DNA from: Clostridia bacterium
Lineage (GTDB): Bacteria > Bacillota > Clostridia > Oscillospirales > Acutalibacteraceae
Direction: 5' to 3'
DNA: 64,000 bases
Assembly: GCA_017409845.1 (NCBI GenBank)
Contig: JAFQRY010000004.1
Location: forward strand, 1-64,000
The notes beneath the pieces are model-generated. The model made no database searches. It worked only from the letters and a program-made list of their open reading frames with translations, and had not been told where the DNA came from. How positions within the stretch are numbered: position 1 is the first letter of the stretch; each line of letters begins with the position of its first letter. A program made the position numbers and the translations under genes. Positions 45,288-62,963 of this stretch are shown here, piece by piece.

Positions 45288-48200
45288 ATGAAAAAAGCAA
45301 TTTCAATTCTGCTTGCAGTAGTAATTGCGATTTCTGTCATCGTTCCCGGTCTCACGGGCCTTGACTTCGCAAATTTTGCTACCAAAGCAGAAGCAACAAC
45401 ATCACGGGCAAGTGATGCTTATGCAACCGTTTTCACCACGTCTGACTTCCAGGACAGCAAGTCGGGTAATTTGGTTGAATCGAACTTTACTAAGATGATA
45501 AACAATGCGTTGGCTGACGGCTGCGAGGAACCCGACGGATTTATTCTCGGCGGTGACTATGAAAGCTCCTATAACTACCAACACAGCACACCTGATGCAT
45601 ATCACAGAGTAGAGAACATCATTACGGATGCGTTCCCTTATTACGATAAGAGAAATATCATTGCCGTACAGGGTAACCACGACCTTAATGATACGTCGGT
45701 CCTTGATGATACCGGACTTTATGAGTTCGAGCATTATCTTGTCTATGTTATTGCCAATGATGATTATCCTGCAGGTACAGGCGGAGCGAATGCTCTTGCC
45801 AAAACCCAGGCAACTGCCGAAAAGCTTACAGCAGTCTTCGACAGGCTTCTTGCAGAGGGCGAAACAAGACCCATCTTCATAGCAACCCATATTCCTCTGC
45901 ATCATAACTCCAGAAACCCGAAGGCAAACAACAAGGATGCTGCCGGAAACGTAGTCAGTACGGGATATAACGAAACTCTTTATTCTCGAGTTCTTTTTGA
46001 AACCATCAATGCTTATGCATCGGTTTTTGATATCATATTCTTCTATGGTCATAACCATTCGGGTGACTACGACGATTATCTTGGCGGTGCGGTCAACTAT
46101 CTCGCAAAGGGTGAGAAAATCCGTATTCCTGATTCTTCTGTAACCCCGAGTGCAACATCATACACAGAAGAATCTCTTAACTTCACCTATATGAACTACG
46201 GTTATGTCGGCTATACAAACAATACAAACGACAAAACCCTCACTATGGGTGTGTTTGAAATCTGCCCCGACAGAATCGAGGTCACAAGATACTCGACTGA
46301 AGGCGTTTACAGAGAGCATACCATCAACCGAAATCTCAAAACAAATGAGGCTTCTGTTAGCATCGCAAGCTACGGTTCAGGTACTGTAGGTTCCGCTACG
46401 GGTGCTCTTGCAACCGCTACAGGTTTTACAGACCCTGTTTACACGTGGACTACAACCGATAATCAGATTACAACTATTACTGCAACCGGCAGAACCGCAC
46501 AGATTTCTTACAATAAAGTCGGTACTGCAACCCTAACAGTTACTGTAACGGAAAGAAACGATGCATCAAAAACTGCAACAGACTCTACTTCTATTACCGT
46601 TACAGATGAAGCAAAAGGCAAGGTTGCAACTATCCGAGTTGCCACTCAGGTGGTTGCACAGTCAGCTGTCGGCACAGATGCCGAGAAGATCGGTGTACTT
46701 GAATATTACAACGCAACTTTCGGCAAGGAAGTTTCGCTTGTAGGCAGCTATGAAGGCTTTACCGCAAATGCAACAACTTTATGGTCCTCCTCTGACGCTA
46801 ATGTTGCAACCGTAGACAACGGTGTTGTTAAGCTTGTCGGCAGCGGTACTGCATTTATCAGCTATACAGCAACCGATGCTAACGGTGATTCGTTTACAGC
46901 AAAGGTTAAGTTTGTAGTCAGCAATGCACCGAAGGTTCAATATTTATATGAAGAAGTTCCGAATACTTCAATTTCAGCAGGTAAAGAATATGCTATTGCA
47001 ACCACCCGTGACGGCAACACTTATCTCTATAACAACACATTGGGAGATAACGGACAGGGTGCTACACTTGTCGGTACAAGCTGCACCTTTGCAGGCACAA
47101 GCCCTAACCGTACTGTTGAAGTAAGTGACGATTCATTTGTCTGGAGCACATCATCAACAGGAACTGATGGCGTATATTATCTGCAAAATTTATCCAGCGG
47201 AGAGTACCTCAGTTCTTCCCAGGTTACAAGTACTCCCATCAGAGGTAATTTTGTTCTGACGTCAAGTGTTCCGAGCGTTTCTGACGGCGGTTGGAGAATT
47301 GCAGCCAACAACAATCTCAGTAACGGCACTTACAACTGGTATGTAAGAGGCGGCGGTATAACCAACCTTCTTACCGATACTAAAACAGACTACGTTGTTT
47401 TGTTCGAAAAAAAGGCACTTAACCCAACTGCTTCGATTGACTTCCGAGGCGACGTTGTTGATAACACAAATCAGGTTCTTTATTCGGTAACAGATGTTCT
47501 GAAGGTTCCTGTTTACGGCATATACACCAACATTGAACAGCTCGGAGAAGAAACCTGGACTTCTTCAAATCAGAGCGTTGTCACCGTTGATTCAGACGGT
47601 ATGCTCTCTTTCAAGGGTGTGGCAGGCACTTCGGATATTACTTACACCGTAACCGATGCAAAAAGCGGACAGACCTACAGCGCAACATTCACAATTGAAG
47701 CAAAGCTCGGTGCCGAGCCTACACGTACTTTCAAATACACAAAAACAATCCAACCCGGCAAAACCTATATGGTTATCAGTCAGAAAGCTATCGGTGACGC
47801 ACTCGCTCTTTCGGGTTACAAAGTAACCTATGAAAAGCTTCTTGCTGAAGATATTACTGTTCAAGTCAACTCAAATAACGAATTTTTTGTTAATGTTCCC
47901 GCAGATTTCACGCATACCGTATGGATTCCCGAGAATGCAGGCGACGGCACTTACTACCTCAAAAATGAGGCTGACGGAACATATTTCTATGCATGTTCAG
48001 ACGGTACAGTCGATGATTACGGCGGTCTGAACGGCGAGGTTCTCACAAGCGAATCCTATGAAACCAACACTGAGCGTTATAAATGGACTTATAACGGTAC
48101 AAACCTTTATAATCAAAGCTCTTATACTAACCAGACAACGAGCGTGCTGTCTGATGTAACATATGTCAGACTTCGTTCAGCCAATTTCGCCGGCATTGCA

Positions 48201-51200
48201 ACAATGAGTCAGTCCGAAATGTACTTCTACGAAGAAGTTCTGGCTGAACCCAACGGCGTTATCACATTGAGATATAACGTTCTCGGTGCAACCTATGTCA
48301 GAAACGAAATATGCCCCGGTCAGAGCGAAACCTTCGTTCCCAAGGCAGAAAACTTCCCCGATAACAATCAGGTTGATTTTATTTGGTCAATCCCCGAAGA
48401 TGATCAGGATATTGCAACAGTAGACCCTGTAACTGGTGTTGTTACTTATACCGGTAAATCAGGTAACGTTGACCTTACTCTTACATCAACATCAAGAATT
48501 TATGACGCAAACAGCGTCAAACCCGTTGACACAACAACAGTCAAGCTCATTGTTAACGGCGGCGAAATCGAAGTTCCCGAAGAACCCGAAGATCCCGATC
48601 AGCCCACTTTTGTTGAAAACGCTTACTATAAAACAACAACTCTTGTTCCCGGCAAAAAGTATGTTTTGCATACAAGCTATTCCGATGCTCCCAATCTTGC
48701 ATTTTCGAATGAAAACAAGAGTGGTTACGTTCGTTTGCTTTGTGAAACAACAAATGCACCCCAGACGGACGAAAACGGAGAGTACATTGTAACAACAGAT
48801 AATGCTCATATCTGGGAATGTGTTGAAAGCGGCGTTGACGGCTATGTTTATCTTAAGAACATTGAAAACGGACAGTATTTGTTTACCAGTGAATCAGAAG
48901 CTGCAACAGCTAAGCGTCAGGCTGGTGTTGCGGCAGATTTAACCCATCCCGAAGCTGCCAATGTAACCAATGCCGCTGACAGTTTTCTTATCACTTATAA
49001 CAGCTCCAACGGTATGCTGTTCTCAAAACAGGTTCAGGATACCGGATCAGTATATGGTGTTGGTAACGTAGCAAAATCCTCAGGCGGATACTATTACATC
49101 AGACCTACATATGACGGTTCAAGCGGTTCACCCGTCAGCTACATTACTCTCTATGCAGAGCCTGATAAGGCTGAAACCGACAGCAACTATTACTATCTTA
49201 CCGACAGCTTTGTTGCAGGTGAAAAGTATATTCTTCGTGCTGTTAAGGAAAATGAAAGCGGTGCAACGATAAGTATCGCAGTTTCAGGTACCAAAAACGG
49301 AGATACTAAGCTTGAAGGTGCGGCTGTTTCGCCTGTTGACAATGTGATTGAGAACGAAGATTCAAACATTGTCTGGATTGCCGAAGCAGGTTCAGACAGC
49401 AGTCATTTCTACTTGAAAAATGCCGATACCGGCGAATATCTCAGAATTGATAAAAACGGTGATATAGTAACAACAAGTGCAACCCAGGATGACAATGCTC
49501 AGTTGATTTACTATGAGAAGAATGGCCAATGGGTTATCGGCAGCAAGGCATCGCAAGCCAATCTGATCAGATATAACAATGCATTCTATGAGTCATCATC
49601 AGGTGCTGTGTTCGAGCTTTATCAGCAGGGCGATGCTCCCGAAGGCGGAGACACAATAACTGAAAAGAATGTTTATTATCTTACCGAAACATTTGAGGTT
49701 GGCAAGAAATATCTTATTTCAAACAGTAATACTGTGGGTGCTGCTGATGCACATGTAATGTCTAACCAGTATTACTCGGAAAACAAAATCCTTAAAGCTG
49801 TTTCAACTGAAATAAAAAGCAATGATAACGGCACATACATTTCGAATCCCGGTTCGGATGTTTTGATTGTTGAAGCAGTTACTTCAGATGTATCAAACTT
49901 TGTTAAGCTTAAAACAGAAGACGGTAAATATCTTGTAGTAGCATACAAAGATGCTGATGGTAATAGCTTGGCTTCAGGTGACAGAAAGGTTCTTCTTGCA
50001 GATGAAGGTGTTTATCTCCCTGATCAGTATCTCTTCAGGGCACGATACAGTTCATCCAGCGGATTCAATGTCCTTATGACCAATGAAGGCGGTGCTTTGG
50101 TTTACAGCACGGGTACATCTGTTAACCGTTGGTCAACAAGCGGTACTGCAAAAGCAATTTATATCTACGGCTTGGATGAAAGCACTGTTCCTCAACCTGT
50201 AGAGATGAAAGTGCAGATCAGAAAGCTTGATTATTTCGGTTCTGTTGATATAACAAACATAATAGAATACCGTTATGATATTGATAACGGTGACACAGAG
50301 CAGCTTTACAGATATACTGAATGTGTTCAGGATGGCTACACCTACTCATGGTCTTCATCCGATACTTCGATTGCAACCATCGATCAGAGTACAGGTCTTG
50401 TTACCTATACGGGCAGGGAAGGTCACGTAACATTTAACCTTACAGTAACCGGCAATGATGATAACGGAGAAGCGGTTAATGAAACTGTTTCAACAACCTA
50501 TAAGGTTTCAAGCGAACCCTACAGCCTTTCAGATGAGGATTACCCCGCATATCCCGATGAAGGTTCGGTTCGTATTAAGAAGACCGCGTCAAATGCTGCA
50601 GGCGGCTCAAACTTCCAGAACACAGGCGTTACCGAGATTGAACTTGGTGTAACGGGTGTTCCTGTTACTCAGCCTGTTGACGTTGTTGTTGTTCTTGACC
50701 ACTCTGACTCCATGAACGGCAACAATCAGCTTCTTAACGCAATTAACGATACCCGTAACTTTGCACTTCAGCTTTTCAACGCAAATGAAAACAACCGAAT
50801 TGCAGTTGTTACCTTCGACCAGTTCAGATATCACTACGAATCCATAACTTCAACATCAATGATCAATTCGGAATCCGGTAATGAAGACAAAATCGTTACA
50901 GGTGACGGTACAATTCAGAATGCATTTGTTAAATTTGAACAAATGGATAACCTTGCCGATGACCTTGACTCTCTCAAAGTTAATGCATACGGCGGTACAA
51001 ACTATGACTCGGGTCTTAACTATGCGTACAGAATACTTCAGTATGCAAAGACTGATCCCAATGCAAATGATAATCAGGTTGTTGTATTTATGTCGGACGG
51101 TGCTCCCACAAAGTTCAACGGTCTGAAACTTGGAAGCACCGAAAGCGGAACTCTTTCCGAGGCATGGATTACGGGTGATGAAACTAATGCCGAACTTGCA

Positions 51201-54200
51201 ACATATCTTGCAGATACCGCAACATATCCTGCAGCGGCATATTTCAATACCGACGGTGAAAACTGGTTTGCAAAGGCAATCAAAACTCCCGAAGGTCAGG
51301 ATGTTGAAGGTATGCCCAATGTAAGTCTTTATAACGGCTACCATACAGGTCTCGGTGCAAAGATTTACACCATTGGCTATAACTCGGGTTCGCAGGCTGC
51401 TCAGCTTCTTACAACAATGGCATCCAATCCGTCGAACTATTATCCTGCAACAACAAACCTTCAGGCAGCATATGACAGTATCCTTGAGCAGATTCTTTAT
51501 GCTGCAGAGCATGCAGTTGTTACCGATAAGATGGGTGACCATTTCGATGTTCAGTTTGCAACTGAATTCTCAATCGGCGGTTCAACCGTAACCCTTAATC
51601 CTGTTCCCAAGTTTGAGATTGGTTACTGGACTCTCGACAACCTCGGTAACCGTGTAGAATATAATGTAATGGAAACTATTACATTTACTACAAATACTAA
51701 CGGCGTTCTTACAGCTGCAAGCTCATCAATTATCGGTGATTGCTATGATACAGCATCAAGCACCGTAATCGGTCAGTATGTTTCTTATAACCTCAACACC
51801 GAAACATTCACATGGAATGTCGGCGAGATCACCAGAAACGAAATCACCCTCAAATATTATGCTTGCCTTGAAGGTGCGGCTAATGGTGAAAGAGAAGCAG
51901 GCACATTCGAAACCAACGAATATGCAACTCTTGCATATACAAACTACAGAGGCACAGAATGTTCAAAGACTTTCCCCGTTCCCACTCTTGCATGGAAGCA
52001 GGCTGCTGTAAGCTACGATTTCTATCTCGTAAATGCTGCAGGTCAGCCCATCAACAGGCAAGGTGTTGCTGTTCCCTTTGCGGAAAGAGTTCTTATCGGC
52101 AGAGAGCAGACAAAGCAGCTCCTTCTCAACAGTAATGTAGAACTTACTGCATATGAGCTTATTGCAGGAAACGAAATTCCCTCGGGTTATGTTCTCTACA
52201 ATAACGAAGCAAAATACAACATTTCTGTTTCGAGCACAAATGCTAACAGTTCGGCGGTAATTACCGACAGTACACTAACAACATATTACCGTGACGGTTC
52301 ATATTCAATTAATGTTAACGGAAATGTTCCTAATGTTTCCGACTATTCAAACACAGCAGTTTCATTCGCTGTTAAGTACACAGAAGGTATTATCCCTGAC
52401 AGCGTTGTTATCGACTACGGTCTTCCCGTTAAAATCAGTGTTCTCGGCAACGACTATGCTGTAACAGGAGGTTCAATTACCAAGATTGGTAAGACTCTCG
52501 CAGATGGAACAATTCTTCACAGCGGTGCATACACAACAAGCCGGCTTACCGGCGGAACAACAGATGTCGCTCTCACCTACGGTAAAGCATCGATTGATGG
52601 CGGGTATGTAGTTTATACTCCCACAACCACTGCAATGGATAATGAAGAAGTATTCTATTATGAATATAAGACTGCAGATAACAAGTATTACTACACAACA
52701 ATCACCGTTATTCCCGCAGCCAACATCTATTATGAAGAATCATTTATGACATTTGTTGACGGTCAGGATGACTACAAGTGGGAAGATGTCGGCACAGCAA
52801 TCACCGGCAGATTCCAGGAAGAAGACAGACCCGGCACATTCTCATTTGCTGAATACGATGCAGGTAATGCATATGGTGAAGATCCCGCATACGACGACAG
52901 CTATACTTATTCACTCGGCAACGCAAAGAAGACTACCGTTGATGCTGCTGCTTACGGCAAGGAAGCAACCGCAAAGTTCACCTTCTGCGGAACAGGCTTC
53001 GACCTCTTCAGCGTAACAAGCAATGAAACCGGTGCCGTTCAGGTTACTATTTACAAAGCAGGAACCACAACCATTTACAAGAACTTCCTTGTAAATACAT
53101 ACTATGGTTACAAGCTTGAAGAAGGCGTTCCTCTTCCCGATCTTAACAGCACAGCAGGTCTTTATCAGGTTCCCGTCATCAGTAGACGCGACCTTACTTA
53201 CGGTACATACGATGTCGTTATCAAACCTCTTTACAGCTCTGCTTTTGACCCCAACTACAACAGCACTGCAAACAAGAAAGATAATGACTACAGCATTTAT
53301 GTCGATTCAGTCAGAATTTTCAATCCCGCAGGTATAGGTGAATCGCTTGATAACGAAGTTATTAAGGACGTATACTACAAGGACGGCGAATACGCACCTT
53401 CATTCATGGAAATCAGAGATACCGTTCTTACTCTGGAAAATTTCTATGATGAACTTGTAGAAAATGAGGTTCTTGAAGGTCTTGGTTTTACCGGTTCAAT
53501 CTTCCTTGACGGAAATTCAGCTAACGGTATTGATGATACAGCTCTTGCAACCTATAAGACTAACGGTCCCAAAAACGAACTTTATCTCGGCAAGGGTCAG
53601 GCTATTGCATTCACAGTAAGCTCTGCTGACAAAGAAGCTCTTGCAAGTCTTCAGCTTGGTATGAAGGTTGTTTCCGGCGGTGAAACAGCTAAGGTTACAA
53701 TCATGAACACCAGCGAGAAGTATCCCAACAGCATCACCCTCAGCGGTACTCACGAAACATTCAAGAAGATTAACTCAGCGATTATCTGGGACCAGAATGA
53801 GATCAATTACGAGGATATGACCCAAAACGTATATTCAACTCTTTATCCCATCGTAATTGCAAACACATCTGATACAGATACCGTTATTTCACTCACCAGC
53901 TTCAAGTGGGCACACACAACCAAGCCTGAAAGCGGTGATGCAGAACCCGCTGCAGTTAATTTCATGGTTTATGACTCAACTCCCGCACTTGCAACAATGG
54001 CTCTCAGAAACGCTATGGCAGTTCAGGAAGTAAACGAAGAATCAAAGACCTACAACGAAGAGGATATCTCAATAGAATGGGTCGGCGATACATTCGTTGA
54101 AGGCAAGGAAGCAACCCTCAAAGTGACTACACCTCCCGAGGTTGTTAAGGTTACTGTTGACGGATCAGAAATTACTGAGTGCGAAATTGGCGAAAACGGT

Positions 54201-54710
54201 GACAAGCTCTGGAGCTATACATTTGTTACAGAACAGCCGGGCGAAAATGCATACGAAGTTGTATTCTATGACTATAACGGCGATGCAAGCGAGCCTGTTA
54301 TGACAGAAACTATCGTTGTTGAGGAAGCTCCCGAAGAACCCACAACTCAGGAGCCCACAACGGGCACACCTGAAGTAAGTGAGCCTGCAACAGACGTACC
54401 TGAAGTAAGCGAGCCTGCAACAGACGTACCTGAAGTAAGTGAGCCTGCAACAGACGTACCTGAAGTAAGCGAGCCTGCAACAGACGTACCTGAAGTAAGC
54501 GAGCCTGCAACAGATGAACCTGCAGTAAGTGAGCCTGCAACAGATGAACCTGAAGTAAGCGAACCTGCAACAGATGAACCTGAAGTAAGCGAACCCGCAG
54601 CAGATGAGTCTGTTTATGAGAAGGTTATCCGCATTCTGTCAGACTTCTTTACTAAGGTCTGGAATTTTATAAAGAGTATTATCGAATTTTTCTGGAGGTT
54701 ATTTGCATGA
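45288..54710 (+). CDS. Giant secreted multidomain protein: metallophosphoesterase, Ig-like and repeat modules, VWA domain
   Basis: 3140 residues with an N-terminal signal peptide (helix 4-20, cleavage near residues 34-36). Residues 45-330 form a calcineurin-like metallophosphoesterase: DFQ (D53), GGD (D90), GNHD (130-132), ATH (H201), GHNH (254-257). Gln replaces the usual His of motif I. Ig-like (BIG2-type) segments follow at about 350-560. About five degenerate modules lie at roughly 555-1650, each with a GKxY strand and a YLKNxxxGxYL strand. A VWA domain begins near 1790 (MIDAS DHSDS, GGT, SDG) and is followed by beta-domains. Residues 3028-3107 are eight PEVSEPATD(V/E) repeats, then an aromatic amphipathic helix to the end. 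There is no LPXTG. Probable role: surface adhesion or carbohydrate interaction; inference only. Confidence 0.88.
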   Translation: MKKAISILLAVVIAISVIVPGLTGLDFANFATKAEATTSRASDAYATVFTTSDFQDSKSGNLVESNFTKMINNALADGCEEPDGFILGGDYESSYNYQHSTPDAYHRVENIITDAFPYYDKRNIIAVQGNHDLNDTSVLDDTGLYEFEHYLVYVIANDDYPAGTGGANALAKTQATAEKLTAVFDRLLAEGETRPIFIATHIPLHHNSRNPKANNKDAAGNVVSTGYNETLYSRVLFETINAYASVFDIIFFYGHNHSGDYDDYLGGAVNYLAKGEKIRIPDSSVTPSATSYTEESLNFTYMNYGYVGYTNNTNDKTLTMGVFEICPDRIEVTRYSTEGVYREHTINRNLKTNEASVSIASYGSGTVGSATGALATATGFTDPVYTWTTTDNQITTITATGRTAQISYNKVGTATLTVTVTERNDASKTATDSTSITVTDEAKGKVATIRVATQVVAQSAVGTDAEKIGVLEYYNATFGKEVSLVGSYEGFTANATTLWSSSDANVATVDNGVVKLVGSGTAFISYTATDANGDSFTAKVKFVVSNAPKVQYLYEEVPNTSISAGKEYAIATTRDGNTYLYNNTLGDNGQGATLVGTSCTFAGTSPNRTVEVSDDSFVWSTSSTGTDGVYYLQNLSSGEYLSSSQVTSTPIRGNFVLTSSVPSVSDGGWRIAANNNLSNGTYNWYVRGGGITNLLTDTKTDYVVLFEKKALNPTASIDFRGDVVDNTNQVLYSVTDVLKVPVYGIYTNIEQLGEETWTSSNQSVVTVDSDGMLSFKGVAGTSDITYTVTDAKSGQTYSATFTIEAKLGAEPTRTFKYTKTIQPGKTYMVISQKAIGDALALSGYKVTYEKLLAEDITVQVNSNNEFFVNVPADFTHTVWIPENAGDGTYYLKNEADGTYFYACSDGTVDDYGGLNGEVLTSESYETNTERYKWTYNGTNLYNQSSYTNQTTSVLSDVTYVRLRSANFAGIATMSQSEMYFYEEVLAEPNGVITLRYNVLGATYVRNEICPGQSETFVPKAENFPDNNQVDFIWSIPEDDQDIATVDPVTGVVTYTGKSGNVDLTLTSTSRIYDANSVKPVDTTTVKLIVNGGEIEVPEEPEDPDQPTFVENAYYKTTTLVPGKKYVLHTSYSDAPNLAFSNENKSGYVRLLCETTNAPQTDENGEYIVTTDNAHIWECVESGVDGYVYLKNIENGQYLFTSESEAATAKRQAGVAADLTHPEAANVTNAADSFLITYNSSNGMLFSKQVQDTGSVYGVGNVAKSSGGYYYIRPTYDGSSGSPVSYITLYAEPDKAETDSNYYYLTDSFVAGEKYILRAVKENESGATISIAVSGTKNGDTKLEGAAVSPVDNVIENEDSNIVWIAEAGSDSSHFYLKNADTGEYLRIDKNGDIVTTSATQDDNAQLIYYEKNGQWVIGSKASQANLIRYNNAFYESSSGAVFELYQQGDAPEGGDTITEKNVYYLTETFEVGKKYLISNSNTVGAADAHVMSNQYYSENKILKAVSTEIKSNDNGTYISNPGSDVLIVEAVTSDVSNFVKLKTEDGKYLVVAYKDADGNSLASGDRKVLLADEGVYLPDQYLFRARYSSSSGFNVLMTNEGGALVYSTGTSVNRWSTSGTAKAIYIYGLDESTVPQPVEMKVQIRKLDYFGSVDITNIIEYRYDIDNGDTEQLYRYTECVQDGYTYSWSSSDTSIATIDQSTGLVTYTGREGHVTFNLTVTGNDDNGEAVNETVSTTYKVSSEPYSLSDEDYPAYPDEGSVRIKKTASNAAGGSNFQNTGVTEIELGVTGVPVTQPVDVVVVLDHSDSMNGNNQLLNAINDTRNFALQLFNANENNRIAVVTFDQFRYHYESITSTSMINSESGNEDKIVTGDGTIQNAFVKFEQMDNLADDLDSLKVNAYGGTNYDSGLNYAYRILQYAKTDPNANDNQVVVFMSDGAPTKFNGLKLGSTESGTLSEAWITGDETNAELATYLADTATYPAAAYFNTDGENWFAKAIKTPEGQDVEGMPNVSLYNGYHTGLGAKIYTIGYNSGSQAAQLLTTMASNPSNYYPATTNLQAAYDSILEQILYAAEHAVVTDKMGDHFDVQFATEFSIGGSTVTLNPVPKFEIGYWTLDNLGNRVEYNVMETITFTTNTNGVLTAASSSIIGDCYDTASSTVIGQYVSYNLNTETFTWNVGEITRNEITLKYYACLEGAANGEREAGTFETNEYATLAYTNYRGTECSKTFPVPTLAWKQAAVSYDFYLVNAAGQPINRQGVAVPFAERVLIGREQTKQLLLNSNVELTAYELIAGNEIPSGYVLYNNEAKYNISVSSTNANSSAVITDSTLTTYYRDGSYSINVNGNVPNVSDYSNTAVSFAVKYTEGIIPDSVVIDYGLPVKISVLGNDYAVTGGSITKIGKTLADGTILHSGAYTTSRLTGGTTDVALTYGKASIDGGYVVYTPTTTAMDNEEVFYYEYKTADNKYYYTTITVIPAANIYYEESFMTFVDGQDDYKWEDVGTAITGRFQEEDRPGTFSFAEYDAGNAYGEDPAYDDSYTYSLGNAKKTTVDAAAYGKEATAKFTFCGTGFDLFSVTSNETGAVQVTIYKAGTTTIYKNFLVNTYYGYKLEEGVPLPDLNSTAGLYQVPVISRRDLTYGTYDVVIKPLYSSAFDPNYNSTANKKDNDYSIYVDSVRIFNPAGIGESLDNEVIKDVYYKDGEYAPSFMEIRDTVLTLENFYDELVENEVLEGLGFTGSIFLDGNSANGIDDTALATYKTNGPKNELYLGKGQAIAFTVSSADKEALASLQLGMKVVSGGETAKVTIMNTSEKYPNSITLSGTHETFKKINSAIIWDQNEINYEDMTQNVYSTLYPIVIANTSDTDTVISLTSFKWAHTTKPESGDAEPAAVNFMVYDSTPALATMALRNAMAVQEVNEESKTYNEEDISIEWVGDTFVEGKEATLKVTTPPEVVKVTVDGSEITECEIGENGDKLWSYTFVTEQPGENAYEVVFYDYNGDASEPVMTETIVVEEAPEEPTTQEPTTGTPEVSEPATDVPEVSEPATDVPEVSEPATDVPEVSEPATDVPEVSEPATDEPAVSEPATDEPEVSEPATDEPEVSEPAADESVYEKVIRILSDFFTKVWNFIKSIIEFFWRLFA
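54369..54608 (+). repeat. Eight 30-base tandem repeats encoding a Pro/Glu/Thr-rich stalk
   Basis: Units encode PEVSEPATDV or PEVSEPATDE with only synonymous and V/E, A/E and T/A changes. The first five are nearly identical in DNA, so copy number may vary between strains. This is the wall-spanning type of linker preceding the C-terminal helix of the giant protein. Confidence 0.9.
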
Positions 54711-54946
54711 AAAAGTATATAAAACCTGATATTTCTTTCCAGAAATTGAATCTTTCAACAAACATTTCAGCCGGCTGTGAGCATACTGCTACACTGGATG
54801 CAGGTGTATGTCCCGCTGAAGTTCCCGGTCAGCCCGGACTTACGGTTTTTTTGGAGAACAGTGCTTGTATGGTTTATTCCCCCGATCTCGGCGGCTTAAT
54901 CTGCTATCACGTTCCCACTGCTGACTCAAACGTATTTGAATCATAA
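54707..54946 (+). CDS. 79-residue four-cysteine peptide, candidate RiPP precursor
   Basis: It starts MKKYIKPDISFQKLNLSTN, a leader-like amphipathic stretch of the MKKYxKP type seen on small clostridial modified peptides. After ISAG the core is rich in Gly and Pro with cysteines at 24, 35, 54 and 66, and ends NVFES with a C-terminal Ser. No signal peptide is present. The ATG overlaps the giant protein's stop (ATGA) and has GGAGG upstream. Downstream genes supply a radical SAM enzyme, a PqqD-like binder, a kinase-like ATPase and an exporter, which is the main reason for calling it a precursor. The final product is unknown. Confidence 0.75.
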   Translation: MKKYIKPDISFQKLNLSTNISAGCEHTATLDAGVCPAEVPGQPGLTVFLENSACMVYSPDLGGLICYHVPTADSNVFES

Positions 54947-54954
54947 ATTTCCGC

Positions 54955-54998
54955 AAGCCGAGTCACCGCTTTGGTGACCCGGCTTTTCGGATTTTTAA
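54955..54998 (+). terminator. Attenuating hairpin between precursor and modification genes
   Basis: AAGCCG-A-GTCACC (54955-54967) pairs with GGTGAC-C-CGGCTT (54973-54985) with one A/C mismatch, followed by TTCGGATTTTT. It lies between the precursor stop and the lipoprotein start. A partial terminator here would give more precursor than enzyme transcripts, a common layout in RiPP operons. Confidence 0.75.
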
Positions 54999-55010
54999 AA
55001 AGGTGAGCCT

Positions 55011-55682
55011 ATGAAATTGTTCAGAAAAGTTTCTGTGTTGATTCTTGTATCGGTGATGATAGTTTTATCTGCCTGCGACTCAAAAAAAGAAGCAGAAACA
55101 TTCCATGGCGTTATATTTCCCGTTTCGGTTTACAGTGACGTGTTTGTGGAAGAAGCTGTAATCCGCACCTCCGATTTCCCCGAGGACGGAAGTTTTGAAG
55201 AAAAAAAGGATGTTCTTACTCTCAAAGTAAGAAATGAGGCTGACAAAGCAATTCAGCTTCTCAGAATAAAGGTTACAACCGATCAGAAAGAAATGCTTTT
55301 TGAAATTACAACACTTCCCGCAAATATGGCGGTCAATGTTTTTGAAAAAAACGGACATACTCTTTCCAAGGGCGAAAAGATAGTTGATATTTCCGGCGAA
55401 AACAGAGTTGATTTTGAAAAAGCAATCGGTCTTCAAAGAGAAACCTTTGAACTTGATGTTCACGACAAAGTTATCAATATCAGAAATATTTCAAAAAATG
55501 ATATAGAATCCGATATTTATCTGTATTATAAAAAGAAAGATAAAGACGGAAGCTATTTCGGAGGAATAACGTTCCGTTCAAAGATAGACGGCCTCAGATC
55601 GGGCGAACTCAAGCAGATTCCCGCACCTCATTTTGCGCTGACTGACAGCGAGGTGATTTTTTTAGATTATGCAGGTGAATAA
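55011..55682 (+). CDS. Lipoprotein of unknown function in the peptide operon
   Basis: 223 residues. The signal ends LSAC at C22, a good lipobox, so it is likely anchored outside the membrane. The mature part is beta-rich with two repeated-looking halves (LKVRNEADKAIQLLRIKV and FELDVHDKVINIRNISKND), consistent with one or two Ig-like folds; I do not recognise a family. AAAGGTGAG precedes the ATG. The 3-prime end overlaps the kinase-like gene. It might be a receptor, immunity or chaperone protein for the exported peptide; no motif decides this. Confidence 0.7.
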   Translation: MKLFRKVSVLILVSVMIVLSACDSKKEAETFHGVIFPVSVYSDVFVEEAVIRTSDFPEDGSFEEKKDVLTLKVRNEADKAIQLLRIKVTTDQKEMLFEITTLPANMAVNVFEKNGHTLSKGEKIVDISGENRVDFEKAIGLQRETFELDVHDKVINIRNISKNDIESDIYLYYKKKDKDGSYFGGITFRSKIDGLRSGELKQIPAPHFALTDSEVIFLDYAGE

Positions 55683-56508
55683 ATATCTTTTTTGCGGCTG
55701 TTCGGTAGAATTGAAAAGCGATGATCCGATAGAAAAAGAAAGGGAATTCTCTGCATTTCTGTCAGAATATTCAGATGCCGATTATTCAATAAGAATAATC
55801 AGGACCGATGAATTGCCGCCAAAAACAGGAGAAGCGGTTTATCTTTCCGATCGCAGAAAAGTGTATTATGACGGCAGAACAAAGCTGTACACGGCATATT
55901 TCAATACAAAGGAATATAAGTATATTGATTATGCCTGCAAAATCGATAATTCAGAGCTTTACATCAAAAGCACTGACAGATTTGGAGAAATAACGGTTTT
56001 TGACAGCCTTAACCTGCCTGCGATACTGATTGAAAAGGGGATAGGTATTCTTCATTGTTCGTTTATTGAATATAAAGGATATGCAATTCTTTTTTCTGGT
56101 GATAAACAGGTCGGAAAATCGACTCAGGCTGCGCTCTGGAATGAGAATCTCAATACCGAAACAATAAACGGTGACAGAGCCGCATTATCTGTTGAAAACG
56201 GTGTTGTTTATGCAAACGGTATTCCGTTTTGCGGAACATCAAAAATATGCAAAAATAAAAAACTTCCCGTCAAAGCGATAATCTGCCTTTCAAAGGGTAC
56301 TGAGAACAAGATTAAAAGATTATCTGCGTCCGATGCTTTTATGTCGGTTATCGGTAAGTTTACCTATGATATGTGGGATAATAAGGCGTCGGAAACAATA
56401 GCCGATCTTGTGCAGACTGTTGCCGAAACCGTGCCCGTATATTCTTATTCGTGTCTTAAAGACAAGACTGCCGTGGATTTTCTTGAAAAAGAACTGTCTG
56501 CGCTGTAA
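55669..56508 (+). CDS. HPr-kinase-like P-loop protein (RiPP-associated HprK homologue)
   Basis: 279 residues. The C-terminal half holds the kinase core: FSGDKQVGKSTQAALW with Walker A at 144-151, then TINGDRAALSV, ANGIPFCGTSKIC and VKAIICLSKG. These blocks are typical of HprK homologues beside PqqD and radical SAM or lasso-peptide genes, not of true HPr kinase/phosphorylase. In paeninodin-type lasso clusters a related kinase phosphorylates the precursor's terminal Ser, and the peptide encoded here also ends in Ser. Start ATG 55669 overlaps the lipoprotein stop by 14 bases; no strong ribosome site is visible. Confidence 0.75.
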   Translation: MQVNKYLFCGCSVELKSDDPIEKEREFSAFLSEYSDADYSIRIIRTDELPPKTGEAVYLSDRRKVYYDGRTKLYTAYFNTKEYKYIDYACKIDNSELYIKSTDRFGEITVFDSLNLPAILIEKGIGILHCSFIEYKGYAILFSGDKQVGKSTQAALWNENLNTETINGDRAALSVENGVVYANGIPFCGTSKICKNKKLPVKAIICLSKGTENKIKRLSASDAFMSVIGKFTYDMWDNKASETIADLVQTVAETVPVYSYSCLKDKTAVDFLEKELSAL

Positions 56509-56523
56509 ATGAGGTGATACAGT

Positions 56524-57669
56524 ATGGAAAACAAACCTGTTACAATCAATCCCGTTTCATCAGAGCCGTTGATTTCAGCGTATCTTCATTCCAAGGCGAA
56601 AGAAAAAGGAATACCTCTTTCGGGAACCTTTGAGATAACGGGAAGATGTAATTTCAATTGCAGAATGTGTTATGTCCATAACTCGGACTGTAACAGAATG
56701 AAAGCTTCCGAATTACCTGCCGAATGGTGGATAAATCTGGGCAGAGAAGCGGTTGAAGCGGGAATGATTTTCCTTCTTATCACCGGAGGGGAACCGCTTA
56801 TCCGCGATGATTTTGCTCAGATTTACACAGAGCTTTGCAAAATGGGATGTGTGGTTTCTCTGAATTCAAACGGTTATCTTATAAATGATAAAATAAAAGA
56901 ACTGTTTAAAAAGTACCCGCCCAACAGAATCAACGTTTCAATTTACGGTTCGGATGACGATACCTACGAAGGCTTTACGGGCGTAAGAGGCTTTACAAGA
57001 GTAATCCGTAATGTTGAAGAACTGCGTGAAATGGGTATTGATGTGAGATTCAATTGCAGCATCACTCCCGATAACCGCAGTGATATGGAAAACATTTTTA
57101 ATGTTTGCAAGGAACACGGATTTCATGTTAAAACAACATCCTATATGTTTCCCCAGGTGAGAATCAACGGTGTTCACGGAGAAAATGAAAACCGATTATC
57201 ACCCGAAGAGGCGGCAGAATGCCGTGTTGCCTGGTCAAAGCTAAAGTATTCGCCTGAAGATTTTGCTTCAAGAGCAATCGGAATGAAAAAGAAAATCGAT
57301 GAGGTTCTCGGCAAAAAAGAGACGTATAACCCTGCCGAAGGTGTACTGTGCAGGGCGGGAAGATCATGTTTTTGGGTGGACAAAGAGGGAAAAATGGCAC
57401 CCTGCGGCATGATAAACAAAACATTTGATATCAAGTCAATCGGATTTAACGAAGCATGGAATCAGGTGAAGAAATTCACATCCGAAATCCGTTTGCCTAA
57501 GGAATGCTCAAACTGTGCTTTCAGGCATTTTTGTAATGTTTGTGCGGCTGCCTGCTATACCGAAAGCGGAGATTATTCAAAGAAACCCGAATATATCTGC
57601 AAGTTCAGTGCGGAAACCGCACGCTTGACTCAACTCGAACTTGAAAGGCTTGAAAAAGATGGAAATTAA
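56524..57669 (+). CDS. Radical SAM enzyme with SPASM domain, peptide-modifying type
   Basis: 381 residues. The radical SAM cluster is bound by CxxxCxxC at C42, C46 and C49 (GRCNFNCRMCY). ITGGEPLIRDD is the SAM-binding GGE motif, and NSNGY and NVSIYGSDDDTYE are barrel strands typical of peptide-modifying members. The C-terminal SPASM region has Cys 276, 282, 294, 328, 331, 337, 340, 344 and 359, enough for two auxiliary Fe-S clusters. Such enzymes form thioether or C-C crosslinks in precursor peptides held by a PqqD-type domain, which here is the next gene. GAGGTGATAC precedes the ATG. Confidence 0.9.
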   Translation: MENKPVTINPVSSEPLISAYLHSKAKEKGIPLSGTFEITGRCNFNCRMCYVHNSDCNRMKASELPAEWWINLGREAVEAGMIFLLITGGEPLIRDDFAQIYTELCKMGCVVSLNSNGYLINDKIKELFKKYPPNRINVSIYGSDDDTYEGFTGVRGFTRVIRNVEELREMGIDVRFNCSITPDNRSDMENIFNVCKEHGFHVKTTSYMFPQVRINGVHGENENRLSPEEAAECRVAWSKLKYSPEDFASRAIGMKKKIDEVLGKKETYNPAEGVLCRAGRSCFWVDKEGKMAPCGMINKTFDIKSIGFNEAWNQVKKFTSEIRLPKECSNCAFRHFCNVCAAACYTESGDYSKKPEYICKFSAETARLTQLELERLEKDGN

Positions 57670-57919
57670 AAAAAATGTGATTATGAGAACCGTTGCAGGT
57701 GAGCATATGCTTGTACCTGTCGGCGATACGGTTTTTCAGTATAACGGAATATTTATGCTGACAGACAGCGGCAAGCTCTTATGGGATAAAATCCGTGATG
57801 GTGCTGAAAGCGAAGGGCTTGTAAAAGCTTTAATCGAAGAATATGATATTGATGAGGCAACAGCCTCCAAAGATGTTGCGGATTTTCTTGAAAAACTGCA
57901 GTCATATGAAATTATCTGA
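57659..57919 (+). CDS. PqqD-like peptide chaperone (RiPP recognition element)
   Basis: 86 residues, starting inside the last codons of the radical SAM gene. It has the PqqD pattern: VIMRTVAGEHMLVPVG, then YNGIFMLTDSGKLLWDKI, then an acidic helical half with LVKALIEEYDIDEATASKDV. The N-terminal beta-strands normally bind the leader peptide and present it to the radical SAM enzyme. The overlap shows that the two proteins are meant to be made together. An upstream in-frame start within the enzyme gene is less likely. Confidence 0.88.
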   Translation: MEIKKNVIMRTVAGEHMLVPVGDTVFQYNGIFMLTDSGKLLWDKIRDGAESEGLVKALIEEYDIDEATASKDVADFLEKLQSYEII

Positions 57920-57939
57920 TTGAGAAACGGGATGATATT

Positions 57940-59664
57940 ATGAAGAAGCCAACTGAATATGTTCAGCTTTTCCGTTCACTCGGAAATGAGTGGAAATGGC
58001 TTCTGCGATATGCTTCACGGTACCGTTTGCAGATAGCTCTGTATGTTGTTATCGGAATTGTGAGCACTGCGATGGGTCTTGGATCAAGTGTAGCAACTAA
58101 ATATCTGATAGACTCCGTTGTTTCGCACAATGATGATACTATTCTCAGAAATGCACTTCTTGCAGTCGGTCTGAGCCTTTCTCAGATTATTGTGGGTGCG
58201 GTGATATCGAGAATAGTTGCGGTGGTCGGAACAAAAATCAGCAGTGAAATCCGAAGCAGTATCTATGAGCATATAACCTACTCAAAATGGGAGAATATCA
58301 GAAAATTTCATTCGGGCGATTTGCTTAACAGAATTGAAGGTGATGTTGCTTCGGTTTCAAACAGCATTATCACCTATATCCCGGGAATTTTCACAAAAGG
58401 TGCGCAGTTTGTCGGCTGCCTTGCGGTTGTGCTTTATTACGACCCCACAATGGCGATATTTGCTTTTCTCAGCGCTCCGTTTCTTGTTATTTCATCAAAG
58501 ATAACAATGAAAATGATTCGCAAATACAACAAAGAGAGCCGCGAAATGAACGGCAGAATTCTTTCGTTTTATTCCGAATCAATACAGAATTTACAGACAA
58601 TCAAGGCGTTCGACATAACAAAAAGATATGTTGATCAGATGAAAACGAATCTTCAGCTTCACAGAAAAATCAAGCTTGATCACGACCGTTTTACCATCGC
58701 AATGAGTCTCTGTATGTCGGTTATAGGGCTTGTGGTGGCTTACTCCTGCTACGGCTGGGGTGTCTACCGCCTCTGGCAGGGTGCGATTTCATACGGAACA
58801 ATGACCTTGTTCCTGCAGATTTCGGGTCAGCTTACGGGCTCGTTTTCAAGCCTTGTTTCGCTTGTTCCGGGTGCAATTTCAATCGCCACCGCCGCAGGAA
58901 GAATAATGGAAATAACCGATCTTCCGCTTGAAGAGCACAGGGACAGCAAAAAGGCTGAAAAAATGGAAAAATCCGCAAACGAAAACGGCGTGACAATCGT
59001 TTGCGATAATCTGAAATATACATATCCCGACGGAGACGAACCCGTAGTCGGCAATGCGACCTTCAGGGCGGAGCCCGGTGAAACAATAGCATTTGTCGGT
59101 CCCTCGGGCGAAGGCAAAACAACGCTTCTCAGGCTCATTCTCGGGCTTGTTGAGCCCGATTCGGGCACACTGAGCGTCGAAACAAAAGACGGAATGAAGC
59201 TCGGCATTTCCGAAAGCACCAGAAGATTCTGTTCCTATGTGCCCCAGGGAAATGCAGTCTTTTCGGGCACTGTTGCGGATAATCTCCGAATTGTCCGACC
59301 CGAAGCTGCAGATGATGAAATAATTGCCGCTCTCAGGGTTGCGGATGCATGGAGCTTCGTTGAGGAGCTGCCTCTCGGAATTAATACCGTGATAAGCGAA
59401 AAGGGTGTTAATTTCTCAGAGGGTCAGGTGCAGAGAATCTCAATCGCAAGAGCGATTCTCCGCGATGCTCCCATCATTGTTATGGACGAGGCAACAAGTG
59501 CGCTCGATGCCGAAACAGAGGCAAGGGTTGTTGCAAACATGATGAATGCTTACCCAAACAGAACAAGAATCATCACAACCCACCGCCCCGCAATGCTCAG
59601 ATACTGCACAAGGGTTTATTCAATTGAGAAAAACGGAAGATTGGTTGAAATATCAGAAGAATAA
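57940..59664 (+). CDS. ABC transporter, fused permease and ATPase, likely peptide exporter
   Basis: 574 residues. Six helices lie in residues 20-310. The ATPase domain has GPSGEGKTT (Walker A, about 387), FSEGQVQRISIARA (signature, LSGGQ altered to FSEGQ, about 491) and IIVMDEATSALD (Walker B, about 512). No N-terminal C39 peptidase domain is present, so leader removal must be done by another enzyme. It is a half-size exporter that would work as a homodimer. It starts 20 bases after the PqqD gene, and a glycosyltransferase gene follows. Confidence 0.9.
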   Translation: MKKPTEYVQLFRSLGNEWKWLLRYASRYRLQIALYVVIGIVSTAMGLGSSVATKYLIDSVVSHNDDTILRNALLAVGLSLSQIIVGAVISRIVAVVGTKISSEIRSSIYEHITYSKWENIRKFHSGDLLNRIEGDVASVSNSIITYIPGIFTKGAQFVGCLAVVLYYDPTMAIFAFLSAPFLVISSKITMKMIRKYNKESREMNGRILSFYSESIQNLQTIKAFDITKRYVDQMKTNLQLHRKIKLDHDRFTIAMSLCMSVIGLVVAYSCYGWGVYRLWQGAISYGTMTLFLQISGQLTGSFSSLVSLVPGAISIATAAGRIMEITDLPLEEHRDSKKAEKMEKSANENGVTIVCDNLKYTYPDGDEPVVGNATFRAEPGETIAFVGPSGEGKTTLLRLILGLVEPDSGTLSVETKDGMKLGISESTRRFCSYVPQGNAVFSGTVADNLRIVRPEAADDEIIAALRVADAWSFVEELPLGINTVISEKGVNFSEGQVQRISIARAILRDAPIIVMDEATSALDAETEARVVANMMNAYPNRTRIITTHRPAMLRYCTRVYSIEKNGRLVEISEE

Positions 59665-59673
59665 GGTGATAAG

Positions 59674-60597
59674 ATGGTCAGGGGATTTGTAACATTAGCT
59701 ACGGGGAATATCATATATTATAGAATGGCTGCTAATTTGCTTGCCTCTTTTAAAATTCACAATCCGGGTGTTCCGTTTGCGATAATTTGTGACAGAACAA
59801 ACGAATATACTGATATGTTCGATGATGTTGTTTTGCTTGAAAAAGCAAATGGAAACTATATTGACAAATTATCGCTGCTTATTAAATCACCATATGATGA
59901 GTCTATATTTATTGAGCCGGATTGTCTCATTTACAGAAATCTGGATTTTTTTTGGGATTTATTATCACATGAATCGGATTGTTCAAGTTTTGGTTGGAAT
60001 GATGGTGGCTTGAAACGTTGGTTCGGTACTGAGGAAGTGAGGGCTCGTTTATTTGAACTTATCTCTGAACTTGATGAGAATATGGTGGTTCCTCTTTTTA
60101 ATCCGGGATATATTTTTATAAGAAAAGGTTCGAAGTGCAAGAAAATGTATGAGGATTGCCTTGATGTTGCAGAAAAAATAAGTAAAGACTCCCTTCTGAG
60201 TCAATATTCACCGTTATCGGCCGGAGGTAAACTTCGTGACGATCCAATATTCAGTATTGCTATGGGAATGAACGGGTTTATTTGTCATTCAGAGCCCAAA
60301 AAATCTAAATGCATAGCTCTTCCTTCCAAGTACACGATTAATAAAATCGATATAATTGAAGGCGGTTTGGATGTAACAGATAAGAATGGTCGAAAATTTG
60401 ACGATTGTGCACTTCTACATTTTTCTACGAGAAAAGCATTGGAAGAAGGTTTGTATCTTTGGCAGACCATTCTTTTGTTTTTACATAAAAAAAACTGTAA
60501 ATTATATAAAATTTTAAACAACAAGGTTTTTTGTACAGTGTGTGAACTGTTTAGAAAAGCTAAAAAGACAATAAAGCTTTTATTGAATAAAAACTGA
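59674..60597 (+). CDS. GT-A glycosyltransferase at the end of the peptide operon
   Basis: 307 residues, beginning VRGFVTLATGNIIYYRMAAN with FIEPDCLIYRNLDFF as the likely metal-binding block. The fold resembles GT8- or GT2-like enzymes that act on donor UDP-sugars; no certain family. The C-terminal segment is lysine- and aromatic-rich and may bind membrane. AAGGTGATAAG precedes the ATG. Base composition is more AT-rich than the upstream genes, hinting at separate origin. It may glycosylate the exported peptide or belong to surface glycan synthesis. Confidence 0.72.
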   Translation: MVRGFVTLATGNIIYYRMAANLLASFKIHNPGVPFAIICDRTNEYTDMFDDVVLLEKANGNYIDKLSLLIKSPYDESIFIEPDCLIYRNLDFFWDLLSHESDCSSFGWNDGGLKRWFGTEEVRARLFELISELDENMVVPLFNPGYIFIRKGSKCKKMYEDCLDVAEKISKDSLLSQYSPLSAGGKLRDDPIFSIAMGMNGFICHSEPKKSKCIALPSKYTINKIDIIEGGLDVTDKNGRKFDDCALLHFSTRKALEEGLYLWQTILLFLHKKNCKLYKILNNKVFCTVCELFRKAKKTIKLLLNKN

Positions 60598-61617: not shown

Positions 61618-62016
61618 ATGTGTGAAAAATTTTATGTATGCAGAGAAAATGAATTGAAAGAATCTCTGAGAAGTAAAAAGCTTAGGAAAACACCGAAAAT
61701 TTACATGGTGGGATATACACAGTTCTCAAATTGGATTTATGAGGATTACAGTCCCGACTGTGATTATCATCACGAGAGTCTGTATTTTGTTGATTATTCA
61801 AATGATGGAGAAGACGTGGTGTGGGACAAGTTTTTTAACTATACGGCATTGAAAATTTTCAATGAAGGAAAATATGAAAAAATAACGATAGACAGAGAAG
61901 AATACAGCATTGATGTTATTTGCGATGAGTATTCATGTTACAGTTTATCTGCGTTCTGGCACAGCGCAGAAATGAGCGGAGAGGAGATTGAATGGCTAAA
62001 AGACAAAGACGGCTAA
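61618..62016 (+). CDS. Hypothetical protein preceding the tyrosine recombinase
   Basis: 132 residues from the ATG at 61618 with AAAAAGGAATG upstream. It begins CEKFYVCRENELKESLRSKK and is acidic and aromatic in the middle (WIYEDYSPDCDYHHESLYFV). No family is recognised and no membrane helix is seen. Its 3-prime end overlaps the recombinase start by 25 bases, so the two are coupled. It could be a recombination directionality factor or accessory protein. Confidence 0.6.
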   Translation: MCEKFYVCRENELKESLRSKKLRKTPKIYMVGYTQFSNWIYEDYSPDCDYHHESLYFVDYSNDGEDVVWDKFFNYTALKIFNEGKYEKITIDREEYSIDVICDEYSCYSLSAFWHSAEMSGEEIEWLKDKDG

Positions 62017-62963
62017 GTATAACTCAACAGATAATGAAAAATGTTGATGAGCGGTTAAAAGCGAAGAATTACGCGAACCATAAAACCTATCGTCAGTTTC
62101 TTAGGCACAGTTACCGATATGTGAAATTTTGCAGGGAGAATTTTGACTGCCGCGATTATAAGTCTTGCTGTAATTTAGAATATGTGCAGGCTTACTGTGA
62201 CAGTATGATTGACTTATACACGGCCAGCACAATCCATACCTATCTTGCGGCTGTGGCTGTATCGTTTGACGGCGTAAAACTCAAAATTATCAACAAACCT
62301 GTGCGGCATACCGCTGAATACATCCGAGGAAGGAAAGAACCTTTTGCTCCTCAGAAATCATCCGATTTATCGCACGAAGCGTGGAAAAGTATCGTAGATT
62401 TCAATTTAAAAGTCGGGATCAGAAAACGCGAACTTCAAAACTTAAAAGGTTGTAACTTCAAAAAAGACGAGAGCGGATATTGGTGTGTTGAGGTTCTTCG
62501 AGGCAAGGGAGGAAAGTACACTTTAAATCGCTTGAACAGCGAAGAAGATGTTGAATTTATCAGACAATATTTTGAACGGGTGGAACCAGATGAACCCGTG
62601 TTTCCACCCGAAATGTTCAACAACCATCTGAATCTGCATAAACTCAGAGCTGAATCGGCGAAAGAATATTATAAGATTCAAGTTGAGAAAATTCTTGAAA
62701 ATCCCGAATACGCAAAACAGTTGGAGAGGGAAATTCTGTCACGATGGAATAAATACTATATCAACCCCAAAACGGGCAAACCGCGTTATTTTGACAAAAA
62801 AGAAATATGTGGCTGGTGGGTATTGCGTGGAAAAAATCGCGAAAAAGCGCGTCAATTGGGTAACGACGGAAAATACCTGAAAATGGCGGTGCTCGCGACA
62901 AGCATTTTTAAATTATCACATTGGAGAAATGATACAACAATTTTCTCATACCTAAACACATAA
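61992..62963 (+). CDS. Divergent tyrosine recombinase/integrase
   Basis: 323 residues. The N-terminal SAM-like DNA-binding part runs to about residue 110. Catalytic motifs are KVGIRKRELQNL (Arg), LRGKGGKYTL (Lys), NLHKLRAESAKE (HxxR) and LSHWRNDTTIFSYLNT (His/Trp box and terminal Tyr nucleophile). About 80 residues lie between HxxR and the last box, many more than in phage integrases, with a cluster rich in Lys, Arg, Tyr and Trp. GGAGAGGAGATT precedes ATG 61992. Nearby exact 12-base repeats are candidate binding sites. Confidence 0.75.
   Translation: MAKRQRRLSITQQIMKNVDERLKAKNYANHKTYRQFLRHSYRYVKFCRENFDCRDYKSCCNLEYVQAYCDSMIDLYTASTIHTYLAAVAVSFDGVKLKIINKPVRHTAEYIRGRKEPFAPQKSSDLSHEAWKSIVDFNLKVGIRKRELQNLKGCNFKKDESGYWCVEVLRGKGGKYTLNRLNSEEDVEFIRQYFERVEPDEPVFPPEMFNNHLNLHKLRAESAKEYYKIQVEKILENPEYAKQLEREILSRWNKYYINPKTGKPRYFDKKEICGWWVLRGKNREKARQLGNDGKYLKMAVLATSIFKLSHWRNDTTIFSYLNT

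Follow-up and report, generated by a model that had tools for sequence, protein, structure and literature searches.

The window studied here is a stretch of 64,000 nt from the genome of a gut Clostridia bacterium (GCA_017409845.1, contig JAFQRY010000004.1, positions 1-64,000). It contains an operon that, in the reading we favor, encodes a pathway for a ribosomally synthesized and post-translationally modified peptide (RiPP) whose product works with a giant surface protein encoded beside it. We consider this reading probable. The sequences establish a gene family, its conserved residues, gene linkage and co-occurrence among genomes; the chemical steps and the function discussed below are inferences. 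The link to the giant protein is the most interesting part of the system and remains a genetic association. Because the peptide gene usually sits right behind a giant gene, we propose that the two products may be partners.

An earlier note on this DNA had described seven compact plus-strand genes (54707-60597), including a 79-residue peptide with four cysteines, a CxxxCxxC enzyme with nine C-terminal cysteines, and an overlapping PqqD-like gene. These observations are confirmed. All seven open reading frames (ORFs) are on the plus strand at those places. The cysteines of the peptide are residues 24, 35, 54 and 66, the enzyme has its motif at residues 42, 46 and 49 and nine cysteines in its C-terminal third, and the PqqD-like gene starts before the radical SAM gene ends. 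Two features were absent from the note: the C-terminal serine of the peptide and the giant surface-protein gene before it. The interpretation in the note is partly supported.

The seven genes overlap or are separated by short gaps, the longest being 64 nt. The giant gene (9.4 kb) ends in a TGA that overlaps the ATG of the peptide gene and is probably a member of the same operon. The same gene set recurs in other genomes and thus is more than a chance grouping. A scan for promoter-like sites (35 seen and 36.1 expected) and terminator-like sites (20 seen and 13.6 expected) gave no useful signal. The giant protein contains a VWA domain (aa 1799-1938) and a GBS104-like Ig domain (aa 2073-2233) as identified with Pfam, and by eye it has a signal-peptide-like start, Pro/Glu-rich repeats and an amphipathic C-terminal tail. 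Two other giants were scanned. That of locus L034 has the same two domains, and in that of L161 both are below the cut-off. (L, G and C numbers denote loci, genomes and contigs.)

The peptide belongs to a conserved family. Its gene has a dN/dS (ratio of nonsynonymous to synonymous substitution rates) of 0.144 and 0.125 relative to two relatives, indicating purifying selection, and in view of these values and the conserved family we rejected a chance ORF. The peptide matches no Pfam family at E 0.1, and NCBIfam gave nothing meaningful for 25 peptides, with two chance-level matches only. Searches found the peptide in 17 of the 45 genomes of the genus (one weakly), in 8 of 394 genomes order-wide (two weakly) and, with a stricter cut-off, in 2 of 391 class-wide. 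One genome (G296) has four different copies. In total there are 54 unique sequences, 52 of them full-length, and the counts of C-terminal residues, cysteine numbers and upstream ORFs given here refer to unique sequences. Peptides of the group that includes the window (clade 1) are 23-80% identical to the window peptide. An alignment of 25 of 27 peptides, leaving out one with an in-frame stop and one cut by a contig end, has Y4, P7, C24, C35, C66, Y67 and S79 invariant in 25/25, and K6, F48 and P70 kept in at least 90%. The C-terminal serine is found in 50 of the 52 full-length peptides, and the remaining two (L160, L161) have serine second to last. Most of these peptides have four cysteines (38), and others have three (seven), five (six) or six (one).

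In L085 (G004), a clade-1 peptide gene (minus strand, 9956-10093) is shortened by an in-frame TGA, and a clade-2 peptide that follows a different giant on the same contig (L086) is intact. Near-identical copies occur within genomes (G007 C40/C12, G014 C11/C4 and G044 C16/C43); most of their differences are in the central part of the peptide, with the leader and the C-terminus unchanged.

The peptide gene is found with the genes for the modifying enzymes. A profile search detected the radical SAM protein in 27 of the 45 genus genomes, including 16 of the 17 with the peptide. The exception (G032) has a weak partial peptide match (E 0.0023) and no radical SAM gene. The proposal of a RiPP-type operon, with the peptide as its probable substrate and PqqD as the leader-binding element, is supported. 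The earlier note had named peptide homologues that never occur near radical SAM/PqqD genes as a possible refutation, and the co-occurrence of peptide and radical SAM genes in the genus does not bear this refutation out. In the titled genome collection, the radical SAM protein is present at 47 loci, four of which (L076-L079, matching part of the query with 21-31% identity) were used as an outgroup. Genes around the relatives' loci were mapped on larger fetched stretches, using the window proteins to build the profiles. Of 25 clade-1 peptide loci, 16 have precisely the order peptide, lipoprotein, kinase, radical SAM, PqqD. The other nine deviate: L034 and L050 are without the kinase, L042 is without the lipoprotein, and L037, L041, L045, L046, L049 and L074 are rearranged or have parts that were not found.

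The position of the peptide gene relative to a giant gene is the evidence that carries the proposed partnership. Upstream sequence of at least 200 nt was at hand for 48 unique peptides, and in 36 of them a large or contig-edge ORF ends within -30 to +60 nt of the peptide start. The actual spacing in the 36 is -4 to +43 nt. These upstream ORFs comprise 28 of at least 400 aa (window included) and 8 contig-edge fragments of 78-364 aa. Outside the window, 25 of the 27 large ORFs match the window giant (BLAST, E <= 1e-10); the L101 giant has no match to it, and that of L167 matched in one BLAST comparison and not in the repeat. Within the genus, the C-terminal module of the giant (E <= 1e-12) is present in 14 of the 27 genomes with the radical SAM gene and in none of the 18 without it (p 1.6e-4 by a Fisher test, corrected, like those below, for neither kinship nor draft completeness). 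This pattern suggests that the peptide and the giant surface protein work together.

Some peptide genes are solitary, with no kinase or radical SAM gene of the family in the fetched stretch. Seven of these keep a giant-type neighbor, which is large in L158 and L172 and a contig-edge fragment in L170, L171, L173, L174 and L175. A more distant radical SAM ORF is 7 kb away in L175. L162 and L168 are without such a neighbor, and L169 could not be judged. The genus genomes with solitary peptide genes all have a radical SAM gene elsewhere, and G347 (L158) and G296 (L162) likewise have it at other loci.

A second, divergent peptide family is found at clade-2 loci, which have the order kinase, radical SAM, giant gene and in which the clade-1 profile detected no peptide. 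Short ORFs with [YW]xxP and cysteine were sought there. Of 29 listed, those not directly behind a giant were left aside, and the five that remained start 12-19 nt behind the giants. The 3' ends of the remaining two clade-2 giants were read afterwards, and both carry such a peptide (L199, L200). Residues Y4, K6, P7, C55, Y65, C66, K67, F68, S70, F75 and S77 are invariant in the seven peptides. Two further loci (L166, L167), first seen as weak matches to the N-terminal part, have a giant, then such a peptide, then a kinase. These two and the seven clade-2 peptides were not chosen by their C-termini, and 9/9 end in serine. Two short ORFs behind L187 were judged unlike the peptide family and were not counted. 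By BLAST, the giants of the two clades are related to each other, and the C-terminal region of the window giant is related to giants at other loci of the radical SAM family.

The arrangement at clade-2 loci could also mean that the radical SAM enzyme and the kinase act on the giant itself, with the small peptide serving as an adaptor or guide. There, the kinase and radical SAM genes lie side by side with the giant gene, no PqqD gene is labelled in 6 of the 7 stretches, and related giants recur. However, all seven clade-2 giants, when their 3' ends are read, have a YxKP/Ser peptide behind them. The cysteines of the giants are scattered, with no common Cys-rich module seen by eye, and the giants have signal-peptide-like starts, whereas the enzymes are expected in the cytosol. 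We think it very unlikely that the giant is the substrate.

Table 1. Genes of the operon in the window, with the evidence used for each
Feature	Coordinates	Strand	Evidence
Giant secreted protein, 3140 aa from likely ATG	45288..54710	+	Start context, Pfam, relatedness to other giants
79-aa precursor peptide with YxKP in the leader, four Cys, a CYHVP motif and Ser at the C-terminus	54707..54946	+	Alignment, dN/dS
Lipoprotein with a lipobox (by eye) and perhaps two Ig-like halves	55011..55682	+	Related genes at clade-1 loci
HprK-like P-loop kinase, 279 aa	55669..56508	+	Alignment (n=22), profile comparison, below-cut-off models
Radical SAM enzyme, SPASM-like seven-Cys C-terminal region, 381 aa	56524..57669	+	Pfam, alignment (n=24), PDB
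PqqD-type RiPP recognition element	57659..57919	+	Pfam, PDB profile matches, alignment (n=14)
MsbA-like ABC exporter, 574 aa	57940..59664	+	Pfam, genus co-occurrence
Glycosyltransferase-like protein (by eye only), accessory	59674..60597	+	Homologues in 6/45 genus genomes

In the pathway that we envision, the PqqD protein would first bind the N-terminal YxKP of the peptide and present the peptide to the enzymes. The likely start of the PqqD gene is the ATG at 57659, in an ORF that opens at a TTG (57641), and its product matches Pfam PqqD with E 2.9e-15. An alignment of 14 of the 22 PqqD proteins of clade-1 loci is closest to the structures of TbiB1, TfuB1, PbaB1 and LppB. The best PDB matches to its profile are TbiB1 (3.9e-9), TfuB1 (2.2e-7), 9x90 (2.2e-6) and 9x8z (6.3e-4); PqqD itself (3g2b, E 0.047) is a weaker match, behind the elements of lasso peptides and linear polyphosphorylated peptides (LPPs). 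[Y/W]xxP leaders are bound by PqqD-type proteins, and in LppB, D70 holds the tyrosine and F74 packs against the proline, according to PMC13381572. D72 and F76 are invariant in the 14 proteins and have the spacing of LppB D70 and F74. Because of this match, and because the closest structures bind YxxP, the invariant YxxP of the peptide very likely binds PqqD. The genome of the window also has a second PqqD-domain protein (L116, 7999-8340, contig C1), beside a transporter-like ORF (by eye), and no radical SAM gene of the window family is in the 17-kb stretch that contains it.

The radical SAM enzyme would then modify the Cys-bearing core of the peptide, most likely by thioether or related crosslinks. 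Its sequence places it in the radical SAM superfamily (Pfam Radical_SAM, E 7.8e-23) with a SPASM-type C-terminus. The SPASM match is 15.3 bits compared with a cut-off of 21.5, and an alignment of 24 of 25 clade-1 loci (L090, a near-duplicate of L089, was omitted, and a contig end truncates one row) has CxxxCxxC conserved, C276 and C294 invariant and C328, C331, C337, C340 and C359 in at least 90%. All NCBIfam matches are below the cut-off; after heme b synthase they include MoaA, GeoRSP, ScmE, PqqE, mycofactocin, SkfB and StsB. The best sequence match in PDB is SkfB (1.8e-25), then MoaA, followed by 5v1q, which we take to be SuiB, and PqqE. In a quick tree, the window protein groups with L033, L034 and L035 (starred support), and clade 2 also forms a single group with starred support. 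Clade 4 and most of clade 3 are on separate branches, and clade 1 as drawn does not form a single group. This tree leaves the chemistry of the enzyme undecided.

A radical SAM/SPASM enzyme together with PqqD is also the arrangement of the PQQ and mycofactocin pathways, and the peptide could in principle be the precursor of a small redox cofactor. The models of those radical SAM enzymes match below their cut-offs. In the operon, however, the neighbors are a surface protein, a kinase and an exporter, at least three cysteines and a conserved C-terminal serine are spread over the peptide, and some genomes have several peptide genes. We regard a cofactor precursor as highly improbable.

By analogy with paeninodin, the kinase may phosphorylate the near-invariant C-terminal serine, which is a plausible target for it. 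The earlier note called the kinase an HprK homologue. This holds only as a distant similarity: a kinase profile compared with seven HprK proteins of the window's own and related genomes gave a probability of 77% (E 2e-5 over 100 columns). TIGR00679 (HPr kinase proper) is not among the matches of the window kinase at E 1. We aligned the kinases of 22 of the 23 clade-1 loci that have one, again without L090, and H129, G149, K150, T152, N167 and D169 are invariant. H129 and D169 align with a histidine and an aspartate of canonical HprK that we presume to be catalytic in HprK. Below the cut-off, the 22 kinases match the NCBIfam models ScmC (15), HprK-related kinase A (10) and B (9), and HPr kinase (1). 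The matches in PDB are weak and mixed (PEP carboxykinase 0.048, MsbA 0.13, HprK 0.17), and the window kinase matches no Pfam family at E 0.1. The genome of the window has a separate HprK above the cut-off on contig C25. The kinase is present at 23 of 25 clade-1 loci. The genomes of the other two (L034, L050) have 3 and 1 homologues elsewhere, and both loci keep the terminal serine of the peptide.

The modified product would be exported by the MsbA-like ABC transporter, which is encoded in the operon here and often elsewhere in the genomes of relatives. Its membrane region matches Pfam with E 2.6e-37. The ABC subfamily (E <= 1e-80) is found in 23 of the 27 radical-SAM-positive and none of the 18 negative genus genomes (p 4e-9), so that within the genus neither the exporter nor the giant's module was found in a genome without the radical SAM gene. 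In the closest relatives that have sufficient flanking sequence (L034, L035), the ABC gene is not beside the operon; it is adjacent in L045, L074 and L163.

Outside the cell, the product may act with the giant VWA protein, which probably is made from the same transcript, and in clade 1 the gene linkage suggests that the lipoprotein also takes part. Related lipoprotein genes are at 24 of 25 clade-1 peptide loci, all 24 of which were aligned, and several homologues apparently have a transmembrane start instead of a lipobox (by eye). Matches of the lipoprotein profile to 14-3-3 proteins in PDB (E 0.06) were judged spurious.

The last gene of the operon fares differently from the others. The earlier note had included a glycosyltransferase in the pathway, and we rejected it as a core enzyme. 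The glycosyltransferase-like ORF has no match in Pfam (E 0.1), NCBIfam or PDB. Homologues are found in 6 of the 27 radical-SAM-positive and none of the 18 negative genus genomes (p 0.07), a copy beside the ABC gene was seen, besides in the window, only in G025, and the gene is in no other locus of the mapped set. Downstream of the operon there are an integrase-like ORF (61992-62963) and a serine-recombinase-like ORF (63580-64000), both identified by eye, and in L087 (G021) a similar integrase-like ORF and a small ORF are beside the ABC gene. This region could therefore lie within or beside a mobile element.

Several observations weigh against our favored reading. The link of the kinase to HprK is distant, no curated model is above the cut-off for the radical SAM protein and the top match is heme b synthase, and no leader peptidase is evident in the operon. 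No consistent Pfam family is found among the 24 lipoproteins, and none at E 0.1 for that of the window. The count of serines in clade 1 is not independent because most of those peptides were collected with a profile that included the C-terminus. Clade-3 loci have the kinase, yet the seven short candidate peptides inspected there do not end in serine. Eight of the 36 peptides with an upstream ORF are counted on the basis of short contig-edge fragments that were identified by similar amphipathic tails. Twelve of the 48 testable peptides are not directly preceded by a large or contig-edge ORF; at two of their loci (L160, L161) a giant is downstream instead. Lastly, of 17 giants with complete 3' ends, 12 are not followed on the same strand by such a peptide within 700 nt. 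This fraction is not a rate, as most of the set consisted of giants that had not been found near a peptide before. Ten of the 12 are in G007, G014, G024 and G027 (one with 102 nt of flanking sequence), and the loci of the other two (L043, L049) have a peptide elsewhere. Giants can thus do without a peptide directly behind them, and we rejected the notion that every giant has one.

These last two counts are among the points in favor of an ordinary secreted RiPP, either an antimicrobial or a signal, whose genes are merely beside a surface-protein gene, for example in shared variable cell-surface loci. In addition, the peptide cores vary strongly while the leader and C-terminus are kept, an exporter is present, and the lipoprotein could provide immunity. 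However, the tight spacing behind a large or contig-edge ORF is found in two divergent peptide families, the giants of clades 1 and 2 are related, and seven solitary peptide genes keep a giant-type neighbor, although five of these neighbors are contig-edge fragments. We consider a secreted RiPP of this kind unlikely, with more in its favor than the substrate and cofactor alternatives. Our preferred reading, that the product works with the giant, can be taken one step further. We speculate, tentatively, that giant VWA surface proteins have the modified peptide as a dedicated partner, in the form of a Cys-modified and C-terminally phosphorylated subunit, anchor or ligand, and that the enzymes can serve several giant-peptide pairs in trans. 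If so, RiPPs would gain a structural role at the cell surface.

More distant relatives of the radical SAM enzyme are found in other contexts. Many of L052-L075 (Mediterraneibacter and relatives) form a separate branch with the order PqqD, radical SAM, a protein of 111-146 aa, kinase, ABC. Polysaccharide-type genes are close by in some (by eye), and the small protein is without the YxxP/Ser pattern in the copies inspected. In L107, L110 and L112, the order is ABC, PqqD, radical SAM, a short YxVP peptide, kinase, and proteins of ~150 aa and 387 aa. These loci are beside polysaccharide-type genes (by eye) and resemble an LPP-type cluster with an added radical SAM enzyme.

The operon shares features with several known systems. 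The SynChlorMet cassette also combines an HprK-like protein with radical SAM/SPASM proteins. Matches of the window proteins to its models are weak and far below the cut-offs (ScmC 16.7/125, ScmE 82.3/400 and ScmF 67.1/400 bits), and the window operon differs in having one radical SAM gene, a Cys-bearing peptide that ends in serine, and a surface protein. A literature search of open-licence papers found none on SynChlorMet, none joining radical SAM, an HprK-like kinase and PqqD in one RiPP pathway, and none tying a RiPP to giant surface proteins. The maturases of sactipeptides and ranthipeptides (SkfB, AlbA, PapB, StsB) likewise have a radical SAM domain with a SPASM-type Cys region and act on a Cys-bearing peptide. 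In contrast to them, the window enzyme is below the curated cut-offs (PapB 54.7/340, SkfB 51.3/300, AlbA 49.6/850 and StsB 60.2/625 bits) and is accompanied by a separate PqqD protein and a kinase.

The lasso peptides paeninodin and pseudomycoidin have in common with the operon an HprK-like kinase, a C-terminal serine, and a YxxP or WxxP leader with a PqqD-type protein, and paeninodin also shares the exporter. PadeK phosphorylates the C-terminal serine of the paeninodin precursor, and PsmK polyphosphorylates the C-terminal serine; this site is described as extremely conserved in clusters of this kind (PMC9266682). The operon likewise encodes a C-terminal serine with a cognate kinase, and the serine would be the target. 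Unlike these clusters, it has no macrolactam synthetase or B2 protease among its proteins, and has a radical SAM enzyme and conserved cysteines instead. Other papers report HPr kinase and PqqD to be frequent in rumen lasso clusters (PMC7533575) and HPr kinase to be present in some lasso clusters (PMC4289311).

LPPs are made with a signal-peptidase-like leader peptidase, an NTP transferase and phosphorylation of core Ser3 (PMC13381572, Popov et al. 2026). They share with the window operon a discrete PqqD-type element, a YxxP leader, an HprK-like kinase (distant here) and an MsbA-like exporter, and, like LPPs, some of the distant relatives here are beside polysaccharide-type genes (by eye). In contrast, the window operon has a radical SAM enzyme, a C-terminal serine and a giant surface protein, and no SpI-like leader peptidase or NTP transferase is among its proteins; "radical SAM" occurs 0 times in the text of the LPP paper. 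We therefore rejected the operon as a lasso peptide cluster, an LPP proper or a SynChlorMet member, as it lacks their defining features.

Lasso peptides and LPPs provide known cases of phosphorylated RiPPs, and many clusters combine a RiPP with a radical SAM enzyme; among open-licence papers we found none on the combination seen here. The C-terminal serine and the YxKP motif give precise and cheap predictions. The roles of LPPs and paeninodins are called unknown in PMC13381572, and if such a peptide is genetically linked to a surface protein, its function becomes directly testable.

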